Assembly (NCBI GenBank): GCA_013152615.1
Contig: JAADGA010000075.1
Span: 1-12,547, forward strand
From: Alphaproteobacteria bacterium
GTDB lineage: Bacteria > Pseudomonadota > Alphaproteobacteria > Sphingomonadales > Emcibacteraceae
Direction: 5' to 3'
Length of the DNA: 12,547 nt
In this document: piece by piece, positions 1-12,547 of the stretch
How positions within the stretch are numbered: the first letter of the stretch is position 1
Layout: every line of letters starts with the position of its first letter
Program-made: the position numbers and the translations under genes
The notes under the pieces: generated by a model
What the model was told of the DNA's origin: nothing
What the model saw: the letters and a program-made list of their open reading frames with translations, nothing else
The model's database searches: none

Positions 1-219
<219 letters not shown>

Positions 220-225
220 CTATCA

Positions 226-241
226 TTCAAGAGCCGTGCCA
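226..241 (-). promoter_or_regulatory. Sigma-54 (RpoN) promoter of glnK
   Basis: On the minus strand this reads TGGCACGGCTCTTGAA. It matches the sigma-54 consensus TGGCACG-N4-TTGCW at every fixed position except the -12 C, which is A here. The GG and the TTG have the correct 10-base spacing. The predicted start of transcription is near 214, giving a leader of about 28 bases that contains the glnK ribosome binding site. The match is direct; promoter activity is inferred. Confidence 0.8.
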
Positions 242-327: not shown

Positions 328-372
328 TGGCTAAAATTTAGTCATATTCATGCAATGACTATTATTTAATCA
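328..372. promoter_or_regulatory. Two 17-bp dyads 28 bp apart, candidate enhancer for glnK
   Basis: TGGCTAAAATTTAGTCA (328-344) and TGACTATTATTTAATCA (356-372) are imperfect palindromes whose centres are exactly 28 bp apart. They lie about 90 to 130 bp upstream of the glnK sigma-54 promoter. The same dyad with the same spacing occurs upstream of narK and nirB. A further half-like element begins TGCCG at 384, again in 28-bp phase. An NtrC-type activator is the natural candidate. The sites also lie in front of the divergent hydroxylase gene and could affect it. Confidence 0.6.
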
Positions 373-5331: not shown

Positions 5332-6007
5332 ATGAGCAAAAAGATTCTGGAATTACAGGATATTCACCGCCATTTTATTCAGGGGGAGAAGGATCTGCAT
5401 ATCCTGAAGGGGGTGAATTTCACCCTGAAAACGGCGGAGGTGGTTGTCGCTTGTCGGCGCGTCGGGGTCGGGCAAATCGACCCTGCTTCAGATCGCCGGT
5501 CTGCTTGACGGCAGGATTGACGGCGAAGTGATTGTCGATGGCCTTGCCTGTAGCGCCCTGTCCGATAACCGCCGCACCCGTATCCGTCGCTATGATATTG
5601 GATTTATTTATCAAATTCACCATTTGCTGCCGGAATTTACCGCACTGGAAAATGTTATCCTGCCACAAATCATTGCCGGAATATCCAGGGGAAAAGCCAG
5701 AAAGCATGCCCGGGAGATGCTGGAGAAGCTCGGGCTGGGGTCGCGCCTTGATCATCGGCCCGCCGAATTGTCCGGCGGTGAACAGCAGCGGGTCGCCATT
5801 GCCCGCGCCCTGATAAATCATCCGAAAATCCTGCTGGCGGACGAGCCGACCGGCAATCTCGATGAGGCCACTGGCAATAGCGTGATGACGGAACTGTTGC
5901 GCCTGTCACGTGATGAAGGTATCGCCGCCCTGATCGCCACCCATAACATCACCCTCGCCAGAAAAATGGACCGCAGCGTCACCCTGCATAACGGAATTTT
6001 GAGCTGA
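5332..6007 (+). CDS. lolD: Lipoprotein-releasing ABC transporter ATPase LolD, frame interrupted by a one-base shift
   Basis: LolD is the ATP-hydrolysing partner of LolC. The first 37 codons ([15 protein letters not shown] to LKTAEVV) read in one frame from the ATG at 5332, preceded by GGGGGGAAA. Near 5443-5446 the frame moves by one base, and the rest continues intact to 6007. The second part has Walker [11 protein letters not shown]-loop [10 protein letters not shown], signature [15 protein letters not shown], Walker [13 protein letters not shown] and the H-loop ATHN. Removing one base at 5443-5446 restores the expected [13 protein letters not shown] and a protein of about 224 residues, the normal length. 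Read literally, the first frame stops at 5508. A TTG at 5444 could start a version lacking the first 37 residues. As the gene is usually essential, a sequencing error or recoding is likelier than true loss. Confidence 0.85.
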
Positions 6008-7626: not shown

Positions 7627-9099
7627 TCAGTATGTCGACAAAGAGGTGGCGCCCTCAGGGAGCAGTTCGGTACTTTCACCCGCTGGTTCATCCATAAAGG
7701 CCGCGACGATTATAAAAGTAACAATGGCACTCCCGCCGATCACCATAAAAAACAGTGACGGTGAGATGAAGGAAAAAACGATCAGGAAACACACTGCGCC
7801 AACATTGCCATAAGCCCCGACCATGCCAGCAATCTGTCCGGTCATGGGTCGCCGGATCAGCGGAACGGTCGCAAAAACAGCGCCCTCTCCGGCCTGGACA
7901 AAGAAAGAACACAACATGGTGGCACCAATGGCCAGCGGCAAATACCAGCCGGAAGTAATTTGCGCCATGATAAAATATCCCGTCGCCAGACCGGTTAACA
8001 TGATCATCAATGATTTCTTGCGACCGAATTTATCACTGAAAAATCCGCCGCAGGGCCGGGCGACCAAATTCATAAAGGCAAAGCTTGCCGCAACCATCCC
8101 GGCCTGCACCGCCGACAGGCTGAACATATCCATAAAAAACAGCGGCAACATTGATATTACCGCAAGCTCAGAGCCAAATGTCACCAGATAGGCCAGATCA
8201 AGAATTGCTACCTGCTTGAATTTATAACGCTGCCGTGGTGCTACGCCCCGGGTCAGATTTGGTTTATTTACCTTGAAAATATGATGGAGCTGATACAGGA
8301 ACAAAATCAGCAGGAATCCATAGATGAACGAGGTTGTTGTGGACCCGAGAATAACCAGATTCTGCGGTCCGAGCTTCCAGGTCAACAGCGCCAGAGTTAA
8401 AAATAACGGTGCCTTCATGATGATATAAAGGACAAGGTCACGGTGGCTGCTGATTGCCATCGCCCCGACTTTTTCAGGCTTGGAATAAGGCGTCCCGTCC
8501 GGCGTATTCCTGATATTCAGGTAAAAAACAACCGCGTAAATCAGGGAGATCACCCCGGTGATCCCGACGGCGTAACGCCAGCCCTCCGCGCCGCCAAACA
8601 TCAGCGCCAGTGCCGGTAGGGAAAAGGCCGCCGCCGCCGAGCCGAAATTACCCCAGCCGCCATAAATCCCCTCTGCCAGCCCCACAGTTTTGGCCGGATA
8701 CCATTCACTGATCAGGCGAATGCCGATAACAAAGCCCGCGCCGACAAATCCCATCAGAAAGCGGGCCAGTGCCAGCATTTCAAATGAGGTGGCGGCAGCA
8801 AAGAAAAAACTGAGAAAACCGGAAATAACCAGCAACGCGGCATAGACCGCCCGCGGGCCGAACCGGTCAACAAACATGCCGATTATCACCCGTGCCGGAA
8901 TAGTCAGCGCGACATTCAAAATCAAAATGGCGGTAACCTGTTGTTTATTCAGGCTGAAATCATCCCGGATCATCGCCATTAACGGTGCGTGATTGAACCA
9001 GACGGCAAAACTGATAAAAAAGGCCAGCCATGAAAGATGTAATATTTTGCTCTGACCGCTGAAAGAGAACAGCGCCACCCCCGATGATGATCCCGACAT
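7627..9099 (-). CDS. narK: Nitrate/nitrite transporter, NNP family (NarK/NrtP type)
   Basis: This 12-helix MFS transporter of the nitrate-nitrite porter family takes up nitrate, or exchanges nitrate and nitrite, across the inner membrane. Both nitrate-signature motifs are present: GIYGGWGNFGSA in helix 5 (residues 144-155) and GMVGAYGNVGAV in helix 11 (425-436). The substrate-binding arginines appear as PARVIIGMFVDRFG (Arg70) and VARPCGGFFSDKFG (Arg348). The roughly 490 residues include an extended middle region (about 225-290), more like cyanobacterial NrtP uptake permeases than the short NarK1. AAAGGAGT precedes the ATG. A sigma-54 promoter and candidate enhancer sites lie upstream, and nirB lies across the ars operon. 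This points to assimilatory nitrate use under nitrogen control rather than respiration. Confidence 0.93.
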   Translation of the reverse strand: MSGSSSGVALFSFSGQSKILHLSWLAFFISFAVWFNHAPLMAMIRDDFSLNKQQVTAILILNVALTIPARVIIGMFVDRFGPRAVYAALLVISGFLSFFFAAATSFEMLALARFLMGFVGAGFVIGIRLISEWYPAKTVGLAEGIYGGWGNFGSAAAAFSLPALALMFGGAEGWRYAVGITGVISLIYAVVFYLNIRNTPDGTPYSKPEKVGAMAISSHRDLVLYIIMKAPLFLTLALLTWKLGPQNLVILGSTTTSFIYGFLLILFLYQLHHIFKVNKPNLTRGVAPRQRYKFKQVAILDLAYLVTFGSELAVISMLPLFFMDMFSLSAVQAGMVAASFAFMNLVARPCGGFFSDKFGRKKSLMIMLTGLATGYFIMAQITSGWYLPLAIGATMLCSFFVQAGEGAVFATVPLIRRPMTGQIAGMVGAYGNVGAVCFLIVFSFISPSLFFMVIGGSAIVTFIIVAAFMDEPAGESTELLPEGATSLSTY

Positions 9100-9170: not shown

Positions 9171-9186
9171 AGCAAATAATGTGCCA
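9171..9186 (-). promoter_or_regulatory. Sigma-54 (RpoN) promoter of narK
   Basis: On the minus strand this reads TGGCACATTATTTGCT. It matches TGGCACG-N4-TTGCW at all fixed positions except the seventh base (A for G), with GG and GC correctly spaced. Transcription would begin near 9160, leaving a leader of about 60 bases before the narK ATG at 9099. Confidence 0.85.
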
Positions 9187-9306: not shown

Positions 9307-9351
9307 CGCCTATATTTTAGCCAATGAGGTTTCATGCCTAATAGTTAAGCT
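9307..9351. promoter_or_regulatory. Two 17-bp dyads 28 bp apart, candidate enhancer for narK
   Basis: CGCCTATATTTTAGCCA (9307-9323) and TGCCTAATAGTTAAGCT (9335-9351) fit the dyad found at glnK and nirB, with centres exactly 28 bp apart. They lie about 120-165 bp upstream of the sigma-54 promoter, a normal enhancer distance. Weaker look-alikes occur in the same 28-bp phase at 9251 (TCACTAAAAT), 9279 (TGACCAA) and 9363 (TGCCGG). Apart from these, the sigma-54 promoter and a hairpin after arsC, the 330-base gap 9100-9429 holds no gene that I can see. Confidence 0.6.
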
Positions 9352-9429: not shown

Positions 9430-9831
9430 TTACAGCGGATAATCCGGGGGCATATTATCCATCAAATAGTGCTTGATCCGGTCGCGGGCGCGATTAAATG
9501 CCGCGGGCGTGTTGAATATTACCGGGTCGTCGACCGGCCAGTGCAGGCGGGAGAATTTTCCGGCGACAGCGGGGCATACTTCTTCGGCACACAGGGTAAT
9601 GGCCAGATCAACCGTCGACAGATCAATATCATCAACAGATTTTGACCGGTGGCGGCTAATATCAATACCGGCGGCTTTCATTGCCTGAACGGCCAATGGA
9701 TTTACCTGTCCCGAAGGCGCGGAACCGGCACTCAGAGCCGTAATATGCTGACCAAAGAGCTGCCGGGCCAGACCTTGCGCCATTTGGCTGCGGGCGCTGT
9801 TGGCGACACAAAGGAAAAGAATGGTTTTCAT
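9430..9831 (-). CDS. arsC: Arsenate reductase, low-molecular-weight phosphatase type
   Basis: This cytoplasmic enzyme reduces arsenate to arsenite, which the neighbouring ACR3 pump can export. The 133 residues carry the phosphatase-like loop CVANSARS (Cys8 to Arg14, CX5R), a second redox pair CAEEVC (Cys81 and Cys86), and the acidic HWPVDDP segment (98-104). The three cysteines fit the thioredoxin-family-coupled mechanism of this class, with a shorter gap between the last two than in the Staphylococcus enzyme. The start at 9831 overlaps the acr3 stop by four bases (ATGA), indicating translational coupling. An upstream in-frame extension to 9891 would lie inside acr3 and lacks family sequence. 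A plain protein phosphatase role is possible but unlikely in this operon. Confidence 0.92.
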
Positions 9832-10898
9832 ACCTGTTTTTTCTGTTCGGTAAATTCCTCCGGTTCGCCAAACCAGTGGCGTTTCAGCCACAGGGCGACA
9901 CTGACCAGCGAAATCAGCACCGGCACCTCCACCAGCGGCCCGATCACGGTGGCAAAGGCAACCGGGGAGGCGAGGCCGAAGGCGGTAATCGCCACCGCGA
10001 GCGCCAATTCGAAATTATTACTGGCGGCGGTAAAGGCGATCGAGGCCGTGCGCGGATAATCGGCACCGATCCATTTGCCCATGGCAAAACTGATCAGGAA
10101 CATGACGATGAAATAAATAGCCAGCGGGATCGCTATGCGCAGCACATCCAGCGGCAGTTGCAACACCATCCCCCCCTTGAGGCTGAACATGGCCACGATG
10201 GTAAATAACAGGGCTATCAGGGTAATGGGACTGATGCGCGGTTCGAATTTTCTTTTGTACCAATCGCTGCCTTTATGTTTGACAAGCAGTTTCCGGGTAA
10301 GAAATCCGGCCAGAAAGGGAATGCCGAGATAAATCATTACCGATTGGGCAATCATGGCAAAACTGACATCGATGATTTGCCCTTCAAGACCCAGAAACTC
10401 CGGCAGTACCGACATGAAGAACCACGCATAGACACTGAAGAACAGGATTTGGAAAATACTGTTAAACGCCACCAGTGCCGCCGCATATTCCCGGCTGCCA
10501 CCGGCCAGCTGGTTCCAGACAATGACCATGGCGATACAGCGCGCCAGACCGATCAGGATCAGCCCGGTCATATAGGCCGGATAATCCGCCAGAAAGGTTA
10601 TGGCAAGGACAAACATCAGCACCGGCCCGATCAGCCAGTTCTGTATCAGCGACAGCAGCAGAATACGCTTGTCCTGAAAGACTTTGGGTAATTTGTCATA
10701 ATGCACTTTCGCCAGTGGCGGATACATCATCAGAATCAGGCCAATGGCAATCGGGATATTGGTGGTGCCAATGCTCAGGCTGTCCAGCCATTCAGGCAGG
10801 CCGGTAAAGACGCGACCGGCAATCACGCCGGACGCCATCGCAACCACAATCCAGAAGGTTAAATATCTATCCAGAAAGGAAAGGCGTTTTTGTGCCAT
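9828..10898 (-). CDS. acr3: Arsenite efflux transporter ACR3
   Basis: This inner-membrane carrier of the BART superfamily has about ten helices and exports arsenite using the proton gradient. It begins [17 protein letters not shown], the usual ACR3 opening. It has the essential cysteine in the fourth helix in [18 protein letters not shown] and the conserved glutamate in [14 protein letters not shown] near the C-terminus. The 356 residues are normal length. The ATG at 10898 shares its A with the arsR stop (TGATG). A TTG two codons earlier is also open but less likely. It overlaps arsC by four bases at its other end, so arsR-acr3-arsC is one translationally coupled operon. It is unrelated to the ArsB family despite a shared function. 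Confidence 0.95.
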
Positions 10899-11233
10899 CA
10901 GCAATCCGTCCTCTTATCTTTAATGATGATATGGCAGGGCATCTGTTCACTATCCTTGCAGCAGTTTTCGGTAAGATATTTTATGGTGTCGACCAGAGTG
11001 TCATAATTGGCGCGGTAAATATTGGCCCGGCCCGTGCGGTGGCTGGTTACCAGTCCGGCCTGCCTGAGCTTATCCAGATGGAAAGACAGGGTGGCGGCCG
11101 GCATTGCCATATGAGCGCCAATGGCACCGACCATCATGCCCTCGGGTGCGACTTCTATCAGCAGGCGAAAAATCGCCAGCCGGTTTTCCTGTGCCAGCGC
11201 ACTTAATGCTGCAATAACCTTCATAGTATCCAT
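10898..11233 (-). CDS. arsR: ArsR-family arsenic-responsive repressor
   Basis: This small winged-helix repressor dissociates from its operator when it binds arsenite and controls the operon it heads. The 111 residues contain the recognition helix region [19 protein letters not shown] (44-62) and the wing [10 protein letters not shown] (65-74). The classic ELCVCDL metal site is absent. Cysteines instead lie at the C-terminal end: Cys91-Cys92, Cys100 and Cys111, like the Acidithiobacillus-type ArsR that uses a C-terminal CC...C site. The start could be 11233 or the ATG at 11224 ([10 protein letters not shown]), which has GGA in front; neither has a strong ribosome binding site. It overlaps acr3 by one base. 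Confidence 0.92.
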
Positions 11234-11270
11234 ATAACTAGTTTTATAGATATATTAAGAGAGTGCAAGC
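11226..11270 (-). promoter_or_regulatory. Probable arsR promoter and operator region
   Basis: Reading the minus strand, TTGCAC is followed after 14 bases by TATAAA, and the palindrome AACTAGTT lies between this and the start codon. An AT-rich imperfect dyad around AACTAGTT next to arsR is where self-repression would be expected, but no known ArsR operator was matched. The upstream end overlaps the most distal dyad of the nirB enhancer candidate (11266-11282). Confidence 0.35.
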
Positions 11271-11338
11271 TATTTTTAGCCAATTTCCGCAAAAGCCTTA
11301 ATTTTAATCAATAATATCTTTTGCCTATTAATTAATCT
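11266..11338. promoter_or_regulatory. Three 17-bp dyads at 28-bp spacing, candidate enhancer for nirB
   Basis: CAAGCTATTTTTAGCCA (11266-11282, strong right half only), AGCCTTAATTTTAATCA (11294-11310) and TGCCTATTAATTAATCT (11322-11338) have centres at 11274, 11302 and 11330, exactly 28 bp apart. They lie about 95-170 bp upstream of the nirB sigma-54 promoter. The third is 14/17 identical to the glnK copy at 356-372. Together with the narK and glnK copies they give the consensus TGNCTAWWAWTTARNCA, which contains the GNNYR-N5-YRNNC core known for Fis-type helix-turn-helix proteins, the fold used by NtrC. Confidence 0.6.
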
Positions 11339-11433: not shown

Positions 11434-11449
11434 TGGCATAAAGCTTGCT
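11434..11449 (+). promoter_or_regulatory. Sigma-54 (RpoN) promoter of nirB
   Basis: TGGCATAAAGCTTGCT matches TGGCACG-N4-TTGCW except at positions 6 and 7, with the invariant GG and GC correctly spaced. Transcription would begin near 11460, about 45 bases before the nirB ATG. Confidence 0.8.
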
Positions 11450-11504: not shown

Positions 11505-12547
11505 ATGAAAAAGAAACTTGTCATTATCGGTAACGGTATGGCCGGGATGAGGGCATTGGAGGAACTGTTAAAACTGGTTCCCGAGCAATTTGACGTCAGT
11601 GTTTTCGGGGCTGAACCGCAGGTCAATTATAACCGGATTATGCTGTCGCCGCTGCTGGCCGGGGAACAGAAATTTGACGATATCATCATTAATGACCGCG
11701 CGTGGTATGATGACAATGATATCACCCTGTTTTCAGGGGAGAGCATTGTCAGCCTCAACCGGTCGGACAAAACCATCACCAGTGACCGTGACCGGATTAC
11801 CCCCTATGATATCTTGTGGATTGCCACCGGTTCTGACCCTGTTATCATTCCGGTTGCCGGGTGTGACCTCGACGGTATTGTTACCTTCCGCAATATAAAA
11901 GATGTTGATCAGATGATCGCGGCGGCAAAAACCGGCAAAAATGCGGTGGTGATCGGCGGCGGGCTTTTGGGACTGGAAGCCGCCCACGGGCTGAAACATA
12001 ACGGCATGAAGGTGACGGTCATTCATCTCGCTGACAGCCTGATGGAACGCCAACTCGATGAGGCGGCAGGCTACCTCCTGCGCTCTGAACTGGAAAGCCG
12101 GGATATTACCATCCTGACCGGGGCCAACAGCAGAGAAATAATCGGCGATGGTCATGTTCGGGCGGTGCTGCTGGCCGATGGTCGCGAAATCCCCGCCGAT
12201 CTGGTGGTTATGGCGGTTGGGATCCGCCCCAATATTGCCCTGGCCAAAGCAGCTGGTCTTGACTGCAATCGCGGTATTGTCGTCAATGATCATCTCCAGA
12301 CCTCTGACCCGGATATATTTGCGGTCGGCGAATGTGTCGACCATCGCGGCCGGGTTTATGGTCTGGTGGCGCCGCTTTATGAAATGGGCCGGGCGCTGGC
12401 TGGATTCATGGCCGGTTACAACAGCCGCTACAAGGGGTCCGTCACCAGTACCCAACTGAAAGTAACCGGGGTCGAGCTTTTCTCCGCCGGTGATTTCAGC
12501 GGCGGTGGCGGTGCGGAGGACATCGTCCTCAGGGATGCCCGGCGCGG
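11505..12547 (+). CDS. nirB: NAD(P)H-dependent nitrite reductase large subunit, N-terminal part
   Basis: This cytoplasmic enzyme reduces nitrite to ammonium with NAD(P)H. The 347 visible residues cover the FAD/NAD domain: FAD motif GNGMAG (9-14) in VIIGNGMAGMRALEELL, the NYNRIMLSPLLAGE segment (41-54), the NAD motif GGGLLG (151-156) in VVIGGGLLGLEAAHGL, and the FAD-binding DPDIFAVGECVDHRG (268-282). The sequence then reads toward the BFD-like [2Fe-2S] region and leaves the window; the sirohaem/4Fe-4S half, and probably nirD and a nitrate reductase, would follow. The ATG at 11505 has only a weak AGAGAA upstream. NasB/NirB and related rubredoxin reductases share this N-terminus, but the LSPLLAGE style and the narK neighbour favour assimilatory nitrite reductase. 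Confidence 0.9.
   Translation, partial: MKKKLVIIGNGMAGMRALEELLKLVPEQFDVSVFGAEPQVNYNRIMLSPLLAGEQKFDDIIINDRAWYDDNDITLFSGESIVSLNRSDKTITSDRDRITPYDILWIATGSDPVIIPVAGCDLDGIVTFRNIKDVDQMIAAAKTGKNAVVIGGGLLGLEAAHGLKHNGMKVTVIHLADSLMERQLDEAAGYLLRSELESRDITILTGANSREIIGDGHVRAVLLADGREIPADLVVMAVGIRPNIALAKAAGLDCNRGIVVNDHLQTSDPDIFAVGECVDHRGRVYGLVAPLYEMGRALAGFMAGYNSRYKGSVTSTQLKVTGVELFSAGDFSGGGGAEDIVLRDARR

Follow-up and report, generated by a model that had tools for sequence, protein, structure and literature searches.

Paired NtrC-type dyads at a 28-bp step upstream of nitrogen genes in an alphaproteobacterial lineage

The NtrC systems described in alphaproteobacteria and in Escherichia coli offer the closest points of comparison for the locus considered here. 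The NtrC site of Sinorhizobium meliloti is given as TGC-N11-GCA, and NtrC of this species is described as binding PdusB, the operon being reported as autorepressed (PMC10746234). For Paracoccus denitrificans the site is given as YGCMNNNNTTNNTRGCA (RegPrecise, PMC5424462), and its mutation is described as abolishing induction (PMC5424462). The ChIP-seq motif reported for Caulobacter NtrC is related to those of Fis and E. coli NtrC, and the protein is described as binding the glnBA and glnK promoters (PMC10274813). The E. coli consensus is given as TGCACCAnnnTGGTGCA, with the half-site TGCAC (PMC8743547).

The window, by which we mean the whole stretch of 12,547 nucleotides that was analysed, is contig C75 of a genome of 2.1 Mb in 272 contigs that is 83% complete. 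The genome comes from an alphaproteobacterial lineage; among the matches to its GlnK the first four (91-100%) are MAGs, one of them named Emcibacter sp., and the rest stand at 72% or below.

Dyads, promoters and genes in the window

Six strong 17-bp dyads in the window form three pairs, one each upstream of glnK, narK and nirB, and in every pair the centre-to-centre step is 28 bp. The first dyads of the glnK array (328..344, plus strand), the narK array (9307..9323, minus strand) and the nirB array (11294..11310, plus strand) match both the consensus and the matrix; the second lie 28 bp on, at 356..372 (plus), 9335..9351 (minus) and 11322..11338 (plus), respectively. All six fit the TG(C)...(G)CA frame. 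With the consensus of a preliminary description of this DNA, at up to 3 mismatches and with near-palindromes counted on both strands, 11 matches were found in the window against 3.08 expected, and 0 of 200 shuffles reached 11. An outside matrix was built from 27 distinct sites at other promoters (dusB, glnB-glnA, gltB, folB-uvrC) in other genomes, with T and G at positions 1-2 and C and A at positions 16-17 at 0.90-0.97. It places the six dyads at ranks 1-6 of all window positions (scores 13.7-20.9, the seventh-ranked position, 11353, scoring 9.8), and shuffled windows (n=200) hold on average 0.06 matches at this level; because the consensus had also served to choose the training sites, genome and promoter are independent in this test but the motif is not. 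The 28-bp pairs that had been claimed upstream of the three genes are borne out by these ranks.

Three dyads had been described before nirB. The two given above stand, but the third, at 11266..11282 (plus strand), fits in its right half-site TAGCCA only, scores -5.4 with the outside matrix (rank 60) and -1.96 with nirB excluded from training, and was not accepted as a dyad. Nor is its position fixed, the right half being 28 bp off in the window and, by eye, about 29 bp in relatives. Counted across the genome, the bare pair pattern CTAN5TA-N18-CTAN5TA shows no enrichment (3 matches vs 6 for the reversed control), and support for the dyads rests on the full TG..CA sites and their location, not on bare pair counts.

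As the preliminary description had also proposed, sigma-54 promoters face the three arrays, the -24/-12 elements lying 116-150 bp away. The glnK element, TGGCACGGCTCTTGAA (226..241, minus strand), has one mismatch to TGGCAYN5TTGCW; the narK element, TGGCACATTATTTGCT (9171..9186, minus strand), and the nirB element, TGGCATAAAGCTTGCT (11434..11449, plus strand), match it exactly, and the latter is kept upstream of nirB in relatives. Centre distances from array to promoter are about 116 (glnK), 150 (narK) and 126 bp (nirB), all within an enhancer range of 100-160 bp. Exact matches to this pattern number 8 in the genome, including the narK and nirB elements. With one mismatch allowed there are 152, and since the reversed control gives 66, many of these are due to chance. 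Among 30 sigma-54 promoter matches examined as loci, a dyad scoring at least 13 was found at narK and nirB only.

Gene names rest on NCBIfam matches, several of them below cut-off because the genes are fragments. The 5' part of glnK (PII; 1..186, minus strand) runs off the contig end, the PII match covering residues 1-62, and relatives have glnK-amtB at the same place. The nitrate/nitrite transporter gene narK (7627..9099, minus strand) matches TIGR00886 with 329 bits (cut-off 311.7). The 5' part of nirB, for the nitrite reductase large subunit (11505..12547, plus strand), also runs off the contig end and matches TIGR02374 over 345 of its 794 positions; at 420.5 bits the match stays under the cut-off of 578 because the gene is truncated. 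Elsewhere in the window, the reading frame of a lolD-like ABC ATPase (5332-6007) seems to be interrupted at about 5440, the Walker-A part not being in the frame of the ATG at 5332, either through an assembly error or in reality; after ubiH, the stretch 1790-1920 holds, by eye, imperfect tandem copies of a AGCCAGCCGTTTGTGAAAA-like unit.

In 5/5 same-genus relatives with nirB, this gene is flanked by a divergent narK, with no ACR3 in the stretches examined. In three loci (L131, L133 and L134) one array was located between the two genes, 125-127 bp away on the nirB side and 158-191 bp on the narK side. In the window arsC, ACR3 and arsR lie between narK and nirB (9430-11233), and each gene has its own 28-bp pair, at 150 and 126 bp. 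The split amounts to a natural experiment, with one array between two divergent sigma-54 promoters in five relatives as against a separate pair for each promoter here, and the promoter distances after it are about as in the relatives. Duplication of the enhancer by the arsenic insertion is no more than a guess. Past the narK array, no significant similarity to the relatives was seen (of 300 shuffles, 256, 144 and 181 score at least as high for L131, L133 and L134), and the two window arrays, aligned to each other, score 25 against a shuffle maximum of 26.

The dyads in the genome, in relatives and across the class

The pattern TGNCTAN5TARNCA occurs with zero mismatches at six places in the genome, two of which are the glnK dyads; by count, exact sites are barely above the control (10 vs 6, both strands). 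An exact pair with the 28-bp step at C243:1387-1431 covers the interval from 48 to 4 bp ahead of the dusB start codon, ending three bases before the ATG, and ntrB follows downstream. A further exact dyad lies beside folB at a contig edge (C35:10), and an exact single dyad precedes nrdA (C192:183-199, L059). In relatives (L144, L154, L159) the site on the nrdA side, again a single dyad, falls in a gap common to nrdA and gltB, the latter named from a fragment match to the glutamate synthase large subunit in L154; judged from these relatives, the dyad of the genome itself probably stands before gltB. The genome's glnB-glnA locus (C45, L381) carries two weaker dyads (12.6 and 12.8) 22 bp apart and a near -24/-12 element, TGGCATGAAAAATGCT; the 22-bp step recurs in four relatives (L143, L152, L153, L156). 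Taken together, glnK-amtB, narK, nirB, dusB-ntrB, glnB-glnA and gltB form a nitrogen-assimilation target set that includes ntrBC.

Selection by protein match (E up to 1e-100) found nirB in 6 of 16 genomes of the genus, own included, and the 28-bp pair precedes it in 6/6 (G010, locus L142, among them). A pair search of 60 relatives gave matches in 36, many without the TG..CA frame. Twelve stretches picked from it by eye comprise seven glnK-amtB gaps, three narK-nirB gaps, one ammonium-transporter-like gene (labelled by eye, from another family of the order, with no recognised sigma-54 element) and one ambiguous stretch (G028); in 6/7 of the glnK-amtB gaps a sigma-54 element lies 106-118 bp from the pair. 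A search blind to spacing found the 28-bp pair at glnK-amtB in G002, G006, G009 and G013; G015 has a single site there, and at amtB of G019 the spacing is 39 bp. At dusB the 28-bp pair is present in the own genome and in ten relatives (G001-G003, G006-G008, G010-G013), and by eye in G019; G033 has a single site.

Forty stretches were then considered, taken among the matches listed with a preference for AT-rich cores and mostly representing orthologous promoters, not independent events. A second site, scored at 13 or above, was present in 22, at 28 bp in 15, at 22 bp in 4 (all glnB-glnA) and at 17, 39 and 42 bp in one each; 18/40 have a single site. Fixed dimer spacing, as it had been proposed, describes three promoter types but not glnB-glnA, at 22 bp in the own genome and four relatives, nor the single site at gltB, and with 15/22 tandems at 28 bp it does not extend to every tandem of the lineage.

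A perfect dyad, TGCCTAWWWWWTAGGCA, was also found in a conserved folB-uvrC gap in five relatives of three genera (L139 1397-1895; L146 1232-1733; L150 1273-1765; L162 1324-1818; L174 1341-1823); the genome's own copy lies at a contig edge (L058 1-245). About 60-80 bp after this dyad comes a conserved terminator-like hairpin (TTATCCAC..GTGGATA, then a T run), and we list the unit as a candidate for a small RNA under NtrC control, about 100 nt in length and carrying the dyad close to its start. Rfam gave no match in the six folB-uvrC loci (E up to 0.5) and none in the window at the gathering threshold. A terminator scan of folB-uvrC gave 2 vs 0.1 in shuffles and a promoter scan 2 vs 1.8, and the scans were rated not above chance. 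The gap also holds the words TTATCCACA and TTAACCAT, which we take to be replication-origin motifs. The gap was considered as oriC and rejected: it lies at no minus-to-plus GC-skew turn in G017 or G019 (20 stretches of 20 kb each); the plus-to-minus turn falls at 1.46-1.62 Mb in G017 and 1.61-1.74 Mb in G019, and the gap at 1.919 Mb and 1.583 Mb, respectively. As an origin word TTATCCACA was likewise rejected, being one arm of the terminator-like hairpin instead.

For a wider view, we searched 190 genomes of the class for DusB, obtained matches at E up to 1e-60 in 137 and examined 85 dusB loci, 40 of them mostly from larger genomes; 66 of the 85 have a downstream histidine-kinase motif. Scanned with a window-derived matrix (spacings 17-50 allowed, threshold 12), 33/66 of the promoters with a kinase gene downstream have a pair scoring at least 12 and 33/66 have none. 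Among the 33 pairs the spacing is 28 bp in 9, 29 in 5 and 27 in 2 (16 at 27-29 bp), with 7 others at 18-20, 5 at 40-41 and 5 elsewhere. In shuffles of these 66 loci, 111/1320 reach 12 over all spacings and 7 do so at 27-29 bp; among the 19 loci without the kinase motif 6 reach 12 (3 at 28-29 bp), against 51/380 shuffles. At 17 amtB loci of the class glnK lies upstream in 9, and in 8 of these the 330 bp before glnK could be seen; with a loose cut-off of 5, the pair spacing is 29 bp in three, 28 in one, and 40 and 18 in one each, with no pair in two.

Since 27-29 bp is the commonest spacing at dusB-ntrB across the class, 28 plus or minus 1 bp would be an old preferred spacing, not the sole one. 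This, together with the frame shared by the published alphaproteobacterial NtrC motifs, speaks against the earlier reading of the element as lineage-specific; the letters CTA/TAG inside the frame may be a local trait. No published 28-bp NtrC spacing rule was found in a literature search whose coverage left most subscription journals outside. The dyad frame is already known; what is new is the lineage's regulon, the inner TA...TA letters and the recurrence of 28 bp. The recurrence at 27-29 bp amounts to a simple, testable constraint on the assembly of NtrC dimers on DNA in alphaproteobacteria. Tentatively, and with more doubt than confidence, we propose that alphaproteobacterial NtrC prefers a two-dimer geometry of 28 plus or minus 1 bp (about 2.7 helical turns), where E. 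coli glnA has 32 bp, both as sigma-54 enhancer (glnK, narK, nirB) and as dusB-ntrBC operator class-wide, and that in this lineage NtrC in addition controls a folB-uvrC small RNA.

Candidate regulators and proposed mechanism

The factor at the dyads is very probably NtrC, because of the target set, the conservation and an NtrC with GAFTGA in this genome. The gene ntrC lies on contig C134, upstream of ntrY and ntrX, and is cut by the contig end. Its product, with the receiver domain past that end, has TIGR01818 as best family (428.6 bits, below the cut-off of 558.6 because truncated) and carries the GAFTGA sigma-54 loop and a Fis-type C-terminus. An NtrC core target set from comparative genomics (PMC5343134), as far as it is described there, matches glnK-amtB, glnB-glnA, dusB-ntrB, gltB, narK and nirB. 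The same lines of evidence favour the original reading of the arrays as NtrC-type enhancers before sigma-54 promoters. Scattered dyads, missing pairing or missing conservation had been named as observations that would count against it, and the corresponding searches did not refute it.

NtrX, a paralogue whose gene follows ntrC and ntrY, is very unlikely to be the owner of the sites. NtrX is present (NF051870, 711 bits, cut-off 600) with a Fis-type C-terminus, and a report links NtrYX to nitrate assimilation (PMC5424462), but no GAFTGA was found in the NtrX sequence, so that the usual way of activating -24/-12 promoters would be closed to it, and the dyad precedes dusB-ntrB and glnB-glnA, which belong to the NtrC core set. 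Ownership by another enhancer-binding protein is still less probable: four further proteins with an NtrC-type domain are encoded in the genome (LuxO-like, PEP-CTERM type, FlbD-like and PspF), but their family names point to other duties and the targets are nitrogen genes, the ntrB operon included. Chance, whereby AT-rich promoters would yield dyads and a 28-bp step by accident, may draw on the unremarkable bare pair count and the failed nirB dyad, but is scarcely credible given the top six ranks with the outside matrix, the rarity of such matches in shuffled windows and the pairs kept at orthologous promoters, a conservation that already contradicts it.

With NtrC as the factor, we regard it as highly probable that each pair binds two NtrC dimers and that these activate glnK-amtB, narK and nirB via sigma-54 under nitrogen limitation. 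The sites, promoters, target set, conservation and NtrC with GAFTGA and Fis-type C-terminus are read from sequence; binding, phosphorylation, looping and the direction of regulation we infer from the established NtrC mechanism. Upon nitrogen limitation, NtrB would phosphorylate NtrC, and NtrC-P dimers would occupy the pair, two per array, and assemble into an AAA+ oligomer. By looping, the oligomer would contact the sigma-54 holoenzyme poised at the -24/-12 element, 116-150 bp from the array, and transcription of glnK-amtB, narK and nirB would start. At dusB-ntrB occupancy of the pair would block the promoter, and because the pair sits just ahead of the start codon (48 to 4 bp), this operon is most likely autorepressed by NtrC.

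Comparison with known NtrC systems

An uncharacterised alphaproteobacterial lineage thereby gains a nitrogen regulon with promoter-level detail. Alphaproteobacterial NtrC sites, as published, resemble those found here in the 17-bp dyad, the TGC..GCA frame and the AT-rich core, and also in their targets, which are glnBA, amtB, ntrBC and nitrate assimilation; the negative autoregulation described at PdusB of S. meliloti resembles the autorepression proposed here for dusB-ntrB. Unlike the sites given for S. meliloti and Paracoccus, the present ones have TA..TA at positions 5-6 and 12-13, with positions 3 and 15 loose. Caulobacter NtrC is similar in that the glnBA and glnK promoters are also described among its targets, but it is without GAFTGA and is reported at sigma-70 promoters (PMC10274813), whereas the present NtrC carries this motif and the dyads lie opposite -24/-12 elements. 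The E. coli glnA enhancer is alike in having 17-bp TG...CA dyads in tandem ahead of sigma-54 promoters, and differs in a spacing of 32 bp as against 28 bp. As had been recognised from the outset, the element departs from the enterobacterial NtrC site, its half-site being TG[AC][CT]TA rather than TGCAC, yet it shares with that site the 17-bp TG...CA frame.
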